A DNA stretch of 64,000 nt, from assembly GCA_017468085.1 (NCBI GenBank), contig JAFUJR010000017.1, positions 1 through 64,000 of the forward strand, written 5' to 3'. The notes under the pieces are model-generated. The model worked only from the letters and a program-made list of their open reading frames with translations. It was not told the DNA's origin and made no database searches. The position numbers and the translations under genes were made by a program. Origin of the DNA: Clostridia bacterium (GTDB lineage Bacteria; Bacillota; Clostridia; Christensenellales; Borkfalkiaceae). This document shows, one piece after another, positions 22,838 through 40,492 of this stretch. Positions within the stretch are counted from its first letter, which is position 1; each line of letters begins with the position of its first letter.

Positions 22838-22866
22838 TTGACTGCCTTTGGGGAAGATGTTATAAT
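22838..22866 (+). promoter_or_regulatory. Sigma-A promoter of rplJ-rplL
   Basis: TTGACT, 17 bases, TATAAT. Confidence 0.8.
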
Positions 22867-22872
22867 AGCATA

Positions 22873-23012
22873 GTAAAAATCAACCGCAGACAGCAAGTAT
22901 CGCAAGATTTAATGGTTCGTCCGCTCGCCGAGGTAGAGGAAAACAGCTTTTTATAAAGTTACGACGTCCTTATGCCTCTGCGGTGTAAGGTATTTTTTTA
23001 TGTCAGGCGGCA
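22873..23012 (+). promoter_or_regulatory. L10 leader RNA
   Basis: Untranslated leader of rplJ with the marks of the ribosomal L10 leader: an internal GCCGAGGTAGAGG stretch, then GCCTCTGCGG pairing partner and a final T-rich run (TATTTTTTTA). In this class the L10(L7/L12)4 complex binds the leader and shuts off rplJL expression through a terminator or sequestered ribosome site. Confidence 0.75.
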
Positions 23013-23585: not shown

Positions 23586-23954
23586 ATGGATGTACAGAAA
23601 CTCATTGAAGAAGTAAAAGCTATGACCGTTCTTGAATTGAACGAACTCGTTAAAGCATTGGAAGCAGAATTCGGCGTAAGCGCAGCAGTTGCAGCAGCTC
23701 CCGTAGCAGGCGGCGCAGCAGAAGCAGCTCCCGCAGAAGAAGAAAAGACGGAATTCGACGTTGTTCTTAAGGACATCGGCGCAAACAAGATCGCAATCAT
23801 CAAGGTTGTTAAGGAAGCTACCGGTCTTGGTCTTGCTGACGCTAAGAAAGCAGTTGAAGCTATGGGCGTTATCAAAGAAGCTATGCCTAAGGCAGACGCT
23901 GAAGCTCTCGTTGCTAAACTTAAGGAAAACGGCGCTACCGCTGAACTTAAATAA
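23586..23954 (+). CDS. rplL: 50S ribosomal protein L7/L12
   Basis: L7/L12, 122 aa: N-terminal dimerisation domain (1-34), Ala/Gly/Pro hinge, and C-terminal domain (about 54-122) with [20 protein letters not shown], the face that recruits EF-Tu, EF-G and IF2. It is followed by a terminator and not by rpoB, the usual neighbour. Two downstream genes carry related C-terminal domains. Confidence 0.98.
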
Positions 23955-23971: not shown

Positions 23972-24002
23972 AAAAGGCTTGTCCAAACGGGCAAGCTTTT
24001 TT
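23972..24002 (+). terminator. Terminator of rplJ-rplL
   Basis: Eight-bp stem GCTTGTCC / GGGCAAGC, loop AAAC, then TTTTTT. Confidence 0.8.
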
Positions 24003-24042: not shown

Positions 24043-24060
24043 TCGGTGCATATATTAAAA

Positions 24061-24178
24061 CGGATGGTAAGTGGTAAGTCTGTGTCAAACTTAAAAAACT
24101 TATAAAAGATGGCGGATTTATACAGATACGAAAGAGCGTTAAAGAACGGATGGCAAGTGGTAAGTCTGTGTCAAACTT
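24061..24178 (+). repeat. Tandem 32-bp repeat, two copies
   Basis: CGGATGGTAAGTGGTAAGTC with TGTGTCAAACTT at 24061-24092 recurs at 24147-24178 with one change. A related, more diverged copy is at 52511. The second copy continues into CAAGTTTGTG, making TTCAAGTTT-type dyad symmetry. The 327-base spacer has no gene besides these repeats. Confidence 0.65.
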
Positions 24179-24220
24179 CAAGTTTGTGAAAAGCGTGTGA
24201 AAGAAAATTGTTTTGAGCGC

Positions 24221-24249
24221 TTGACAATATACAATATCTGTGCTATACT
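24221..24249 (+). promoter_or_regulatory. Sigma-A promoter of the first L7/L12-like zinc-ribbon gene
   Basis: TTGACA, 17 bases, TATACT. Confidence 0.8.
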
Positions 24250-24281: not shown

Positions 24282-24980
24282 ATGAAATGTCCCGTATGCG
24301 ATACTGAAAACGCGCCCGGCTTGACCGTGTGCGACATGTGCGGCAGTGAATTACCCGAAATGAAAAAATGCAAGGCTTGCGGCGCGGAAATCCCCAAAAA
24401 GGCGGCGTATTGCCCTGAATGTAAAAACTTGGCGGACGTAAAACCCGCAGACGACAGCACCGGTTATACTCCCGGTATGCCTATGTACGTCGTAGGCTTG
24501 GAATACGTCGGCGACGACAGACAAGAGGTCATCAAAGTCGTTCAATCCCTTCGTAAATGCGATTTCGACGAAGCGCGTGAAATTATCGACGGCGACGGCA
24601 TTATTTTAACAGACGTACCCAAGCTCGAAGCGGAAGTTGCCGTTTCTAAACTTCGCGGCGTAGGCGCGAAAGCAATTATGGAATTGGCAAACGATTGGGA
24701 AGGCGGCTCGTCTTCGGGCGGTTATAGAAGTTCATCTTCCGGACGCTCCAGGTCTTCCTCGCATGCTCCCGCAGGCTCGAAATCCAAGTTGGTTGCAGGT
24801 CTTTTGGCTCTTCTTCTCGGCGGTTTGGGCGTCCATAATTTCTATTTGGGCAATATGGGCAAAGGCATCATTCAATTGTTGCTTTGCTGGACGGGTATCA
24901 GCGGAATTTGGGCGTTGGTTGAAGCGATTATGATTTTCACAGGCTCGATGACCGATTCAAACGGCAACCCGTTGGTATAA
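24282..24980 (+). CDS. Zinc-ribbon / L7/L12 C-terminal-like / TM2 membrane protein
   Basis: A 232-aa protein of unusual make-up. Residues 1-47 hold two zinc ribbons (Cys3/6/17/20 and Cys30/33/44/47). Residues about 69-135 (YVVGLEYVGDDRQEVIKVVQ onward, ending KLRGVGAKAIME) align end to end with the C-terminal domain of L7/L12. A Ser/Gly linker (141-166) leads to a TM2 domain (168-222; two helices with GGLGVHNFYLGNMGKGI between). The ribbons and L7/L12-like part are predicted cytoplasmic. Start chosen for its GGAGG site. It follows rplL by 330 bases with its own promoter and terminator. Function unknown; it could tether translation GTPases or ribosomes to the membrane. Confidence 0.85.
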   Translation: MKCPVCDTENAPGLTVCDMCGSELPEMKKCKACGAEIPKKAAYCPECKNLADVKPADDSTGYTPGMPMYVVGLEYVGDDRQEVIKVVQSLRKCDFDEAREIIDGDGIILTDVPKLEAEVAVSKLRGVGAKAIMELANDWEGGSSSGGYRSSSSGRSRSSSHAPAGSKSKLVAGLLALLLGGLGVHNFYLGNMGKGIIQLLLCWTGISGIWALVEAIMIFTGSMTDSNGNPLV

Positions 24981-24999
24981 TTACATAGTAAAGGCAACA

Positions 25000-25026
25000 A
25001 AAACCGTTCCTCGTGGGGCGGTTTTT
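25000..25026 (+). terminator. Terminator of the first L7/L12-like gene
   Basis: Stem AAAACCGTTCC / GGGGCGGTTTT with loop TCGT. Nearly identical to the terminator of the next gene at 25607. Confidence 0.85.
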
Positions 25027-25052
25027 TAATGCAGGAAAATTGTGGAAAACGC

Positions 25053-25079
25053 TTGACAAATCGGGGGGGGGGGTATAAT
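25053..25079 (+). promoter_or_regulatory. Promoter with 11-G spacer tract, candidate phase-variable
   Basis: TTGACA (25053-25058) and TATAAT (25074-25079) are both perfect consensus boxes, but the spacer is only 15 bases and consists of AATC followed by eleven G. Gain of two G by slippage would restore the optimal 17-base spacing. Confidence 0.75.
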
Positions 25080-25109
25080 AGAGTTATCAACATTTTGGAG
25101 GAAAAACAA

Positions 25110-25598
25110 ATGAAAAAATGTCCCTTTTGCGATTGGGAAAACGAAGATGACGCAAGTAAATGCCTTGCTTGCGGCTGTGAATTATCGACGGCTATAACGA
25201 ACAATGTGGAGATAAAGGGGGGTGATAATGGCGAAGAAAGCGGCGCTTACAGCGTTACCATTACACGCGTAGGTGGGAATAAAATCGCGGTTATCAAAGT
25301 GATAAAAGAATACTTAAATTGCGGACTTGCTGAAGCAAAAGAAAAGTGCGAAAAGGGGTACGTAACGGGGAATTTAACCAAGGCAAATGCGGACTCGCTT
25401 ATTGCGCAGTTGCGGAGCGTCGGTGCAGAGGCTGAGGCGGTTGCAGGTGAGATAGACCCCTCTTCCGAAAGCAGACCTATCGATCAAAACGGTTTTGCAA
25501 ATAAGGCAGACGGTAGCGATATGAAAAAGTTTATTATCACGTTTTTAATTGCTATGGGTATAATGATGCTGGTCGTATTTTTGTTTGTTTTGAGATAA
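25110..25598 (+). CDS. Zinc-ribbon / L7/L12 C-terminal-like membrane protein
   Basis: A 162-aa relative of the preceding gene product. One zinc ribbon (Cys4/7/18/21), then residues 47-110 (YSVTITRVGGNKIAVIKVIK, CGLAEAKEKC, LIAQLRSVGAEAE) that match L7/L12 C-terminal domain very closely, including the NKIAVIKVIKE helix that in L7/L12 contacts translation factors. A linker leads to one C-terminal membrane helix (141-161); no TM2 domain. Start chosen for GGAGG upstream. Shared design and near-identical terminators suggest the two genes arose by duplication. Its promoter carries an 11-G tract. Function unknown. Confidence 0.85.
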   Translation: MKKCPFCDWENEDDASKCLACGCELSTAITNNVEIKGGDNGEESGAYSVTITRVGGNKIAVIKVIKEYLNCGLAEAKEKCEKGYVTGNLTKANADSLIAQLRSVGAEAEAVAGEIDPSSESRPIDQNGFANKADGSDMKKFIITFLIAMGIMMLVVFLFVLR

Positions 25599-25606
25599 AT
25601 TAAAAT

Positions 25607-25635
25607 AAAAACCGTTCCTTGTGGGGCGGTTTTTC
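25607..25635 (+). terminator. Terminator of the second L7/L12-like gene
   Basis: Stem AAAACCGTTCC / GGGGCGGTTTT, loop TTGT. Confidence 0.85.
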
Positions 25636-25788: not shown

Positions 25789-26658
25789 ATGTCCAAAAAG
25801 ATGAAGAGATTTTTAAGCTGTACGTTAGCGGCGTGCGGTATCGTTGCTTGCGCGGGTACGTTGACCGCTTGCGAAACCAACAACCCCGAAGTGGAAATGA
25901 AAATCGAGTTTAACGGCGAGACCTACACGCTCGATTATAAACTTTACAGAAAAATTACGCCCAGCACCGTAGAACACTTTTTGTGGCTTGTAGACGGCGG
26001 TTTTTACAACGATACCGTCATTCACGATTACGACGCTGACACGTTGAAAATGTACGGCGGTTTGTACGATTATGACGAAAACGAAACGGACGGCGATTAT
26101 TACAAGGAAGATAAGTCTTACGCGGCGTTCTGCGAAACGTATAAAGACAAATTCCCTGCAAGCGTATTCTTGGATAAGGGTGAAACGCCGATCTACACCG
26201 TATACGGCGAATTTAAAAACAACCAATTTAACGTTTCAAGCGGTTTATTGAAGGAAGATTTCGGTACGCTTTCGATGTATTATCACGCAAAGGATACGGA
26301 CAGCCGCGTATACGTAAAGCGTGCGGACGGCAACGGTTATTCGGATCGCGATTACGCGCAAAACAGCGCAACGTCTATGTTCTATATGACGTTGTCCACC
26401 TCTGCAAAAACGCAAAACGACTATTGCACCTTTGCAACCTTGACGGGGGACAGCAAAGAAGTTTTGGAGGACTTCAAGCAGGCGATTGCCGATTATATCG
26501 AGGAAAATTACGATGAGGACGAAAGCAGATTCGTAACGGCAACCGAGATGTATATCGACGAAGAGGATGAAATCGAGAACAATCAAGACAAAAAGACGAC
26601 TTTTGATATTCCCAACGAGGCTATCATTATCAAATCGATAACGGTAAAGAAATATTAA
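25789..26658 (+). CDS. Cyclophilin-like lipoprotein
   Basis: A 289-aa lipoprotein (signal 1-27, lipobox LTAC). The segment YKLYRKITPSTVEHFLWLVD with GGFYNDTVIH resembles the start of cyclophilin-type peptidyl-prolyl isomerases (APxTVxNFxxLxxxGFYxxxxFHR). However, the catalytic FHRV is replaced (VIHDYD) and the Q-GGD stretch is not evident, so catalysis is doubtful. Further on are long acidic, Tyr-rich stretches and an ending with ITVKKY. It may be a degenerate extracytoplasmic folding factor. AGGAGAG precedes the ATG. Confidence 0.7.
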   Translation: MSKKMKRFLSCTLAACGIVACAGTLTACETNNPEVEMKIEFNGETYTLDYKLYRKITPSTVEHFLWLVDGGFYNDTVIHDYDADTLKMYGGLYDYDENETDGDYYKEDKSYAAFCETYKDKFPASVFLDKGETPIYTVYGEFKNNQFNVSSGLLKEDFGTLSMYYHAKDTDSRVYVKRADGNGYSDRDYAQNSATSMFYMTLSTSAKTQNDYCTFATLTGDSKEVLEDFKQAIADYIEENYDEDESRFVTATEMYIDEEDEIENNQDKKTTFDIPNEAIIIKSITVKKY

Positions 26659-40108: not shown

Positions 40109-40200
40109 AATTCTAAAAAAGCAAGAAAATCATAGCGCATTTCGTTGACAAACGCAAGCGCAATCAGTAAAATATAAATATTAAAATATTTATCAATAAA

Positions 40201-40492
40201 AAGGCAACGACGGGAACGAAATCCGCGCAAGGTCGCTTACAGAGAGTCGGCGGACGGTGCAAGCCGATAGGACGGCGCGGAAAATATCTCCTCCCCGAGC
40301 CGCCGACAGAACGGCAATGCGAAACTTGCTTAGTAGATTCGGACGGGTTCTCCCGTTATAGAGAAGTCTGTAAGGACGCGAGTGGGCGGGCAACCGTCAA
40401 ACAGAGTGGTACCGCGGAGAAAAAATCTTCGTCTCTTTCGTATAGGCGTGTTGTAAGCGCGCTTATAGAAAGGGATTTTTTATTTTTATTAA
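40201..40492 (+). promoter_or_regulatory. T-box leader, probably leucine-specific
   Basis: Contains the conserved T-box AGAGTGGTACCGCGGA near 40403, the stem I stretch AGAGAGTCGGCGGACGGTGC, and a terminator hairpin with TCTTTCGTATAGGCG pairing to CGCTTATAGAAAGGGA before TTTTTTA. By spacing to the following GAGC the specifier codon reads CTC (Leu) in ATATCTCCTCCCCGAGC; an overlapping ATC (Ile) cannot be excluded. Uncharged tRNA would allow read-through into leuA and beyond. Confidence 0.85.

Follow-up and report, generated by a model that had tools for sequence, protein, structure and literature searches.

Why should a ribosomal domain occur in two predicted membrane proteins encoded directly behind the gene for the ribosomal stalk protein from which such domains are known? 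The question is raised by a locus in a 64,000-nucleotide stretch of a Clostridia genome (the window), in which two genes, P0001 and P0002, follow rplL, the gene for bL12 (L7/L12). The initial annotation placed the two genes at coordinates that proved correct, and proposed that both products combine zinc ribbons, a domain like the C-terminal domain (CTD) of L7/L12 and a membrane part.

Organization of the locus and homology of the L12 domains

The features of the locus are as follows.

22866..23005, + strand, L10 leader RNA, 5' of rplJ-rplL (Rfam RF00557, 52.1 bits against a cut-off of 44)
23586..23954, + strand, rplL (P0003), ribosomal protein bL12 (Pfam N-terminal and C-terminal domains; TIGR00855, 118.5 bits)
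23977..23992, + strand, terminator-like hairpin in the gap between rplL and P0001 (consensus scan)
24221..24249, + strand, sigma-70-type promoter-like site of P0001, TTGACA-17-TATACT (11/12 consensus matches)
24282..24980, + strand, P0001, 232 aa: double zinc ribbon, L12 CTD, Ser-rich linker, TM2
24285..24425, + strand, two zinc ribbons of P0001, aa 2-48 (DZR, E 9.4e-9)
24492..24674, + strand, L7/L12 C-terminal domain of P0001, aa 71-131, altered factor face (PF00542, E 3.7e-7; contacts RQEIKQR)
24777..24929, + strand, TM2 membrane hairpin of P0001, aa 166-216 (PF05154, E 6.3e-19)
25002..25025, + strand, terminator of P0001 (same sequence elsewhere only behind P0002)
25053..25079, + strand, promoter-like site of P0002, TTGACA-AATC-G11-TATAAT, spacer 15 nt (G11 at 25063-25073)
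25110..25598, + strand, P0002, 162 aa: zinc ribbon, L12 CTD, C-terminal hydrophobic helix
25116..25184, + strand, zinc ribbon of P0002, aa 3-25 (Zn_Ribbon_1, E 0.001, below the cut-off; CxxC...CxxC intact)
25251..25436, + strand, L7/L12 C-terminal domain of P0002, aa 48-109 (PF00542, E 2.3e-12; KIAIKKK, as in the resident rplL)
25533..25589, + strand, predicted C-terminal transmembrane helix of P0002 (Kyte-Doolittle 2.99)
25610..25633, + strand, terminator of P0002 (sequence shared with the P0001 terminator)
25789..26658, + strand, gene for a cyclophilin-type protein (lipoprotein-like start) that bounds the variable spot on the right (PF00160, E 1.5e-9; synteny)

The proposed domain content is borne out by the Pfam scan. 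In P0001, DZR, Ribosomal_L12 (30.8 bits against a cut-off of 25.9) and TM2 each exceed their cut-offs; P0002 matches Ribosomal_L12 at 47.5 bits, and its ribbon, with all ligands in place, reaches 19.2 bits against a cut-off of 25. PF00542 is thus found in both proteins, PF05154 and the double ribbon in P0001 only, and both are predicted to be membrane anchored. The L12 domain of P0002 is 44% identical to the neighboring L7/L12 over 64 aa (BLASTP E 2e-14) and that of P0001 32% over 63 aa (E 2e-6; both single-comparison E values). At E<=1e-3 the genome contains three PF00542 matches, namely, rplL, P0001 and P0002. A PDB sequence search with P0002 retrieved 12 matches, all of them bL12, and the corresponding profile search retrieved 32, which comprise bL12 or its mitochondrial form, two zinc-ribbon matches and survivin (E 0.0014-0.009, over columns that include both the zinc ribbon and the L12 domain). 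P0001 retrieved weak matches only, with L7/L12 at E 0.052 ranked behind unrelated proteins, and is the weaker homology case of the pair. Judged by these profile and pairwise scores, the similarity reflects homology and not chance.

The two proteins are nonetheless distinct from ribosomal bL12. The N-terminal dimerization domain PF16320 was matched by P0003 only and is absent from P0001 and P0002 in the Pfam scan, its place being taken by the zinc ribbon and membrane anchor; the TIGR00855 scores of P0002 and P0001 (37.1 and 20.7 bits) lie far under the cut-off of 84.4. The bL12 CTD shares a common fold with ClpS, and ClpS-like peptide binding had been suggested for these proteins; no ClpS was matched in the Pfam or PDB sequence searches, leaving that suggestion without sequence support. 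P0001 and P0002 are thus neither ribosomal bL12, whose N-terminal domain they lack, nor, by sequence, ClpS.

A tandem duplication in a variable spot behind rplL

Aligned over 130 columns, P0001 and P0002 share 30% identity. Their DNA retains four short collinear repeats, 792-832 bp apart and 77-91% identical, that cover the stretch up to the -35 element, the ribosome-binding site with the start codon, and two stretches of zinc-ribbon codons. The near-identical terminators from which a duplication had been suspected are real, the sequence occurring at these two places and nowhere else in the 2.06-Mb assembly at <=2 mismatches. The collinear repeats and the unique terminator pair together support the view that the genes are tandem copies. 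A third paralog, found by sequence, lies on another contig of the same assembly (L110:5762-6355), away from rplL, which sits on the contig of the window. It contains a zinc ribbon and a pair of L12-like domains, of which the latter is weak; the protein scores 25.6 bits against PF00542, just below the cut-off, and no helix is predicted in it. Given the completeness (81.67%) and contamination (5.44%) of the assembly, the membership of that contig is likely rather than certain.

The space between rplL and the cyclophilin gene is a variable spot across the genus. Among 16 same-genus genomes, inspected over ~7 kb behind rplL, the gap to the cyclophilin gene measures 169-221 bp in three and 948-5660 bp in five, and the gene was not seen within that distance in eight. 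Four of the 16 (L273, L277, L284 and L285) have zinc-ribbon genes with predicted helices in the inspected region, and none of these genes has an L12 domain. Because zinc-ribbon membrane genes recur at the spot without it, the L12 domain appears to be the addition. The same holds for the TM2 frame: of 56 TM2 frames, retrieved with P0001 as the query, 34 have a zinc-ribbon motif, and no L12 match in the set is significant (best E 0.28).

A profile of the three own-genome paralogs was run against 398 family genomes, and ZnR-L12 genes were found in two of these among the matches listed. The architecture and its synteny with rplL, for which a survey had been proposed, accordingly recur in one further genome, G1098, a second species of the same genus. 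There a 340-aa protein, L289, is encoded directly 3' of rplL and has two zinc ribbons ahead of its L12 domain (E 1.4e-14), a third ribbon behind it and then two predicted helices; the gene is followed by a lipoprotein-like gene, another zinc-ribbon gene and a cyclophilin-like gene. The same profile revealed no further full-length case among the matches listed for 391 class genomes; in both searches weaker ZnR-L12 proteins may hide below the matches listed, and rplL-sized frames whose match starts inside the zinc-ribbon columns were counted as rplL by length. Single-protein searches of 60 other genomes gave no full-length match to P0001 or P0002. The design is therefore rare, not unique.

Origin of the L12 domain

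The L12 domain of L289 shares 35 of 68 residues with its own rplL. Its scores are 167-175 with each of the 18 same-genus rplL CTDs in the comparison, 152-156 with the three best same-family rplL and <=141 with any other. The eight best-scoring partners of P0002 are likewise all same-genus rplL, the first five at 134-141; its score against its own rplL, 132, is no better than that against a same-family rplL of another genus. The best-scoring rplL for P0001 lies outside the family. In a quick tree, P0002 and L289 pair with an SH-aLRT of 89 (not starred); in another tree, the row nearest to P0002 by path is that same rplL of another genus in the family. The grouping of the genus with L289 has a support of 0, and the placement of L289 outside the genus clade has a p-AU of 0.66; over the ~70 columns available, neither the placement with the genus clade nor that apart from it was rejected for L289 or for P0002. 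A recent copy of the resident rplL was considered and rejected for P0002, since 16 same-genus rplL are 82-98% identical to that of the window and P0002 is 44% identical to its own. The simplest account of the scores for P0002 and L289 is that an rplL CTD was captured at this locus in this lineage, with rplL (P0003) the likely donor. If so, the capture would be an unusually direct case of the birth of a domain from a neighboring ribosomal gene.

The factor-contact face

bL12 recruits translation factors via the face formed by alpha4 and alpha5. Seven contact positions were compared (65, 66, 67, 69, 70, 73 and 84). Mutation of K65 or K70 of bL12 is reported to have weakened the binding of EF-Tu (PMC10602876). 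The seven letters read KIAIKKK in P0002, L289 and the resident rplL alike. In P0001 they read RQEIKQR; the alignment to L7/L12 offered for it earlier is correct, though P0001 differs from the resident rplL at Q66, E67 and Q73, and conservatively at R65 and R84. The two L12-like domains of the third paralog read YKGIKKK and NPAIETK. Thus, the factor-binding face expected for both proteins is kept in P0002 and changed in P0001, and the loss of much of it in P0001 and the third paralog implies that the family as a whole does not depend on it.

The distribution of identity within the domain tells a similar story for L289, which is 71% identical to the rplL of the window over residues 60-90 and 29% over residues 91-119. 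The difference in identity between the halves is 0.42 for L289, 0.15 for P0002 and -0.24 for P0001, against 0.06 +/- 0.09 for 69 ribosomal rows. Conservation is thus strongly biased toward the face in L289, with P0002 consistent with such a bias and P0001 opposite.

L12 domains in other proteins of Clostridia

Multiple PF00542 matches (E<=1e-3) occur in 15 of 395 other genomes of the order and 29 of 390 other genomes of the class; the two samples overlap, and some of the additional matches represent fragments or a further rplL copy. G471 has two full-length rplL-like copies, and G755 a split one. Architectures, read from part of the multi-match genomes plus L177 from the class profile search, include GtrA with L12 (L156 and L158), DUF6709 with L12 (L177 and L253, with L194 classed by resemblance), a signal or anchor helix with EF-Tu domain 2 and L12 (L254, L255 and L256; domain 2 E 3.7e-10, 7.9e-15 and 5.7e-11), TIR and TPR with helices and L12 (L267 and L269, with L268 classed by resemblance), a zinc-ribbon-like segment with L12, below the cut-off (L265), SHOCT with L12 and DUF6273 (L259), and single-helix proteins of 98-107 aa that have the alpha4-alpha5 half only (L262, L263, L266 and L271). 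No helix is predicted in 8 of 28 distinct non-ribosomal L12 proteins (L257 read only in part).

Across 21 non-ribosomal full L12 domains in 11 groups, a set that includes the own-genome family, K/R at positions 65, 70, 73 and 84 is kept in 62-88% (group means). The comparison set consists of the eleven other charged positions conserved in >=90% of ribosomal L12s, and 10 of these are kept in only 14-55% (exact rank test p 0.0088). This count, like that of the half-domain stretches below, was made without same-protein or near-copy loci (L157, L163, L270 and L271), contig-end or frame-fragment copies (L155, L160, L161 and L165) and weak PF00542 matches (L166, which reads as HU-like, L167-L170 and unlocated ones). 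The exception is D/E88, retained in 98% of the non-ribosomal domains at a position not known to be a factor contact; hence, part of the K/R pattern may be a constraint of the fold on the first half of the domain. Eight half-domain stretches in seven proteins retain the alpha4-alpha5 part, with K/R70 in 8/8, K/R73 in 8/8, K/R84 in 7/8 and K/R65 in 6/8. L12 domains thus recur in other Clostridia membrane proteins, often with the K/R contacts.

A poly-G tract in the promoter of P0002

The P0002 promoter-like site contains its G11 tract between the -35 and -10 elements. The assembly has six tracts of G>=9, four of them within promoter-like sites. Besides P0002, the genes behind those four encode a membrane protein with a zinc ribbon, a multi-helix protein and a leucine-rich-repeat protein whose start is of the lipoprotein type. 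The pattern TTGACAN{2,7}G9 is present in 36 of 151 family genomes (own included), which represent 9 of 18 genera; reversed, it occurs in 3 of the 151. A -10 element (>=5/6) stands 14-20 nt behind the -35 in 26 of 32 tracts read versus 10 of 224 control windows further downstream; these loci are the first places per genome rather than every tract, and the count leaves out two contig-end tracts (L231 and L243) and one duplicate (L251). Genes that start <=150 nt from a tract have lipoprotein-type signals, judged by eye, in 14 of 22 cases. Draft assemblies can misstate the length of homopolymer tracts. Slipped-strand phase variation is known from Neisseria, and a literature search found nothing on poly-G promoters in Clostridia. 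We propose that the G11 tract of P0002 is probably a slipped-strand phase-variation switch of a kind that recurs across the family, in which case the poly-G promoters would indicate that surface proteins are phase variable in this family of Clostridia.

Proposed function

The zinc ribbons of membrane proteins of this kind are usually cytosolic, and on that basis a cytosolic orientation is expected for the L12 domains of P0001 and P0002 as well. We suggest that the variable spot behind rplL held a gene for a zinc-ribbon membrane protein, into which the CTD of the neighboring bL12 was copied. P0002, probably tail-anchored behind its zinc ribbon, and L289 would then place a factor-docking face of the bL12 type at the cytosolic side of the membrane, where the docked partner would most likely be EF-Tu, EF-G or another translational GTPase, and a pool of factors, or ribosomes via a factor, might thereby be kept at the membrane. 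P0001 would be a diverged copy with a changed face and probably another partner. Resident bL12 is abundant, and a minor copy at the membrane would have to rely on avidity or locality. For P0002 and L289, docking of a translational GTPase at the membrane is the likeliest mechanism, at a probability of roughly 40%. If true, bacteria would be reusing the factor-recruiting surface of the ribosome on membrane proteins, linking translation and the membrane; a literature search found no functional study of that surface in such a setting.

The nearest rival, almost as probable, is that the L12 fold works as an adaptor for protein binding in general, each protein having a partner of its own, as with SHOCT or ClpS-like domains, and no translation factor being needed. 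The many unrelated architectures in which it is found (GtrA, DUF6709, EF-Tu domain 2, TIR with TPR, SHOCT with DUF6273 and the phage zinc-ribbon proteins) fit such a role, as does the loss of much of the face in P0001 and the third paralog, for both of which divergence favors the adaptor. Two of the L12 proteins, L254 and L255, have lipoprotein-type signal sequences (that of L254 judged by eye) and appear exported, which would put the domain outside the cytosol and argues against a role in translation there. An HTH-L12/ClpS protein with a single transmembrane segment, encoded beside a lipid enzyme, is read as signaling in its published description (PMC12419801). Arbitrary partners would, however, not be expected to leave the K/R contacts retained across unrelated architectures or the conservation of L289 biased toward the face. 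The sequences themselves do not separate the docking reading from the adaptor reading.

That the genes are accidental, by-products of local duplication that turn over fast at a variable spot and have no stable function, is improbable. The varying content of the spot, the want of full-length matches to either protein in the 60 other genomes and the partial rplL-CTD copies behind rplL in two other genomes (G314 and G323) would suit it; against it stand intact zinc ligands and reading frames, the presence of promoter-like sites and terminators, the same architecture at the same spot twice, and the fact that L289 keeps only one of the two halves of the domain. ClpS-like binding of degrons or peptides at the membrane has the common fold in its favor and is very improbable, given that no ClpS was matched and that the conserved part is the K/R set of bL12. 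The least credible role is that of a substitute stalk protein joining ribosomes, for although the domain is the same and a phage study reports peptides of a bL12-domain protein in ribosomal fractions, ribosomes could not be purified via the tagged phage bL12 in that work (PMC6375957), and P0001 and P0002 have a membrane anchor in place of PF16320.

Returning to the docking reading, a more speculative extension of it, unlikely to be right in all its parts, is that P0002 is a phase-variable, tail-anchored stalk mimic: a captured bL12 face under a slipping G tract would concentrate elongation factors (or translating ribosomes) at the membrane in some cells, and the protein would be one member of a broader class of membrane proteins, as yet unnamed, in which the bL12 face is put to use.

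Relationship to known systems

The nearest homolog remains bL12, to whose resident copy the CTD of P0002 is related as described above, with all seven contact letters the same. P0001 corresponds to the frame of the DZR-TM2 proteins (PF12773 and PF05154) plus L12, and P0002 differs from that frame in having one ribbon, one helix and no TM2. SHOCT, another small domain, also occurs with zinc ribbons and with TM2 (PMC3581485).

A related design is already in print. PMC12419801 describes single-transmembrane proteins with either a zinc ribbon and a helix or an HTH and ClpS-L7/L12 in the cytoplasmic part, found beside Skillet-2 lipocones. These share with the architecture predicted for P0002 the single transmembrane segment and a cytoplasmic L12-ClpS domain, and a sister version has a zinc ribbon; there, ribbon and L12 are described as alternatives, whereas here both are in one protein, and those proteins are not said to adjoin rplL, P0002 being followed by a cyclophilin-type gene. 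The claim of the initial annotation that no characterized protein has this design may hold for function; as to architecture, a related case is in print, and the domain recurs in Clostridia membrane proteins.

Readings of the locus in terms of defense or mobile elements were considered and rejected: none of the three paralogs was matched by PADLOC, and P0002 had no match in phage records or IMG/VR and two partial plasmid matches. Profile A1 matched IMG/VR at its zinc-ribbon end only.

Phage bL12 domains within larger proteins are described in PMC6375957. In a phage family made up of phiC2p19 and relatives of L264, a zinc ribbon likewise precedes L12, of which the alpha4-alpha5 half alone is present; further differences are a second zinc ribbon and a position beside tail genes in phiC2 (phiC2p19) and L312. 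The phage protein family phrog_2546 matches both P0002 (E 0.0024) and L289 (E 3.7e-9) over the zinc ribbon and a portion of L12. The ZnR-L12 stretch of L289 has one IMG/VR match, a zinc-ribbon protein, and matches 17 phage records; no match spans >80% of the query, most are confined to the L12 part, and several of these records are annotated as L7/L12.

Poly-G tracts in promoter-like sites

The promoter-like site of P0002, the shorter of the two window proteins that combine zinc ribbons with an L12 C-terminal domain, carries a poly-G tract in its spacer, and comparable tracts recur elsewhere:

window 25053-25079, promoter-like site of P0002
L201, L212, L216 and L223-L252, further loci with such poly-G tracts

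A pattern search recovered poly-G between the -35 and -10 elements in 36 of the 151 Borkfalkiaceae genomes, and the reversed pattern, run as a control in the same search, in 3/151. Among the 32 poly-G tracts read, tract length ranges from 9 to 14 G, and a proper -10 element follows in 26. These family tracts look like phase-variable promoters. Many of them have lipoprotein-type genes downstream. In the window's own assembly, all six tracts of at least nine G were reported on the plus strand of their respective contigs, with none on the opposite strand, a placement that is possibly due to chance.

Repeats, terminators and partial copies around rplL

The gap between rplL and P0001, the longer, TM2-containing protein, holds a direct repeat, and terminators lie farther downstream:

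window 24059-24095 and 24145-24181, direct repeat (37 bp, 95%)
window 25002-25025 and 25610-25633, terminators
window 40198-40439, T-box leader, a separate RNA element (Rfam RF00230 match)

Because the two terminators are near-identical whereas the P0001 and P0002 proteins share only 30% identity, there is a hint of gene conversion or fast coding change. Immediately 3' of rplL, two other genomes (G314 and G323) have incomplete copies of the rplL C-terminal domain (L146 and L147, respectively).

Other nonribosomal proteins with L12 domains

L254, L255 and L256 unite EF-Tu domain 2, the L12 C-terminal domain and a signal or anchor helix in one protein, two of them with lipoprotein-type signals. 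L267, L268 and L269 are large proteins with a zinc-ribbon-like N-terminal start, TIR, TPR and membrane parts, and the L12 domain at the end. L262, L263, L266 and L271 (98-107 aa) have a single helix and an L12 domain reduced to its alpha4-alpha5 half. L264, another half-L12 protein, has phage relatives with the order zinc ribbon, half L12, zinc ribbon:

L318:5079-5639, phiC2p19 of phage phiC2
L307-L314, further phage relatives

Tail genes adjoin the L264-type gene in phiC2 and L312.
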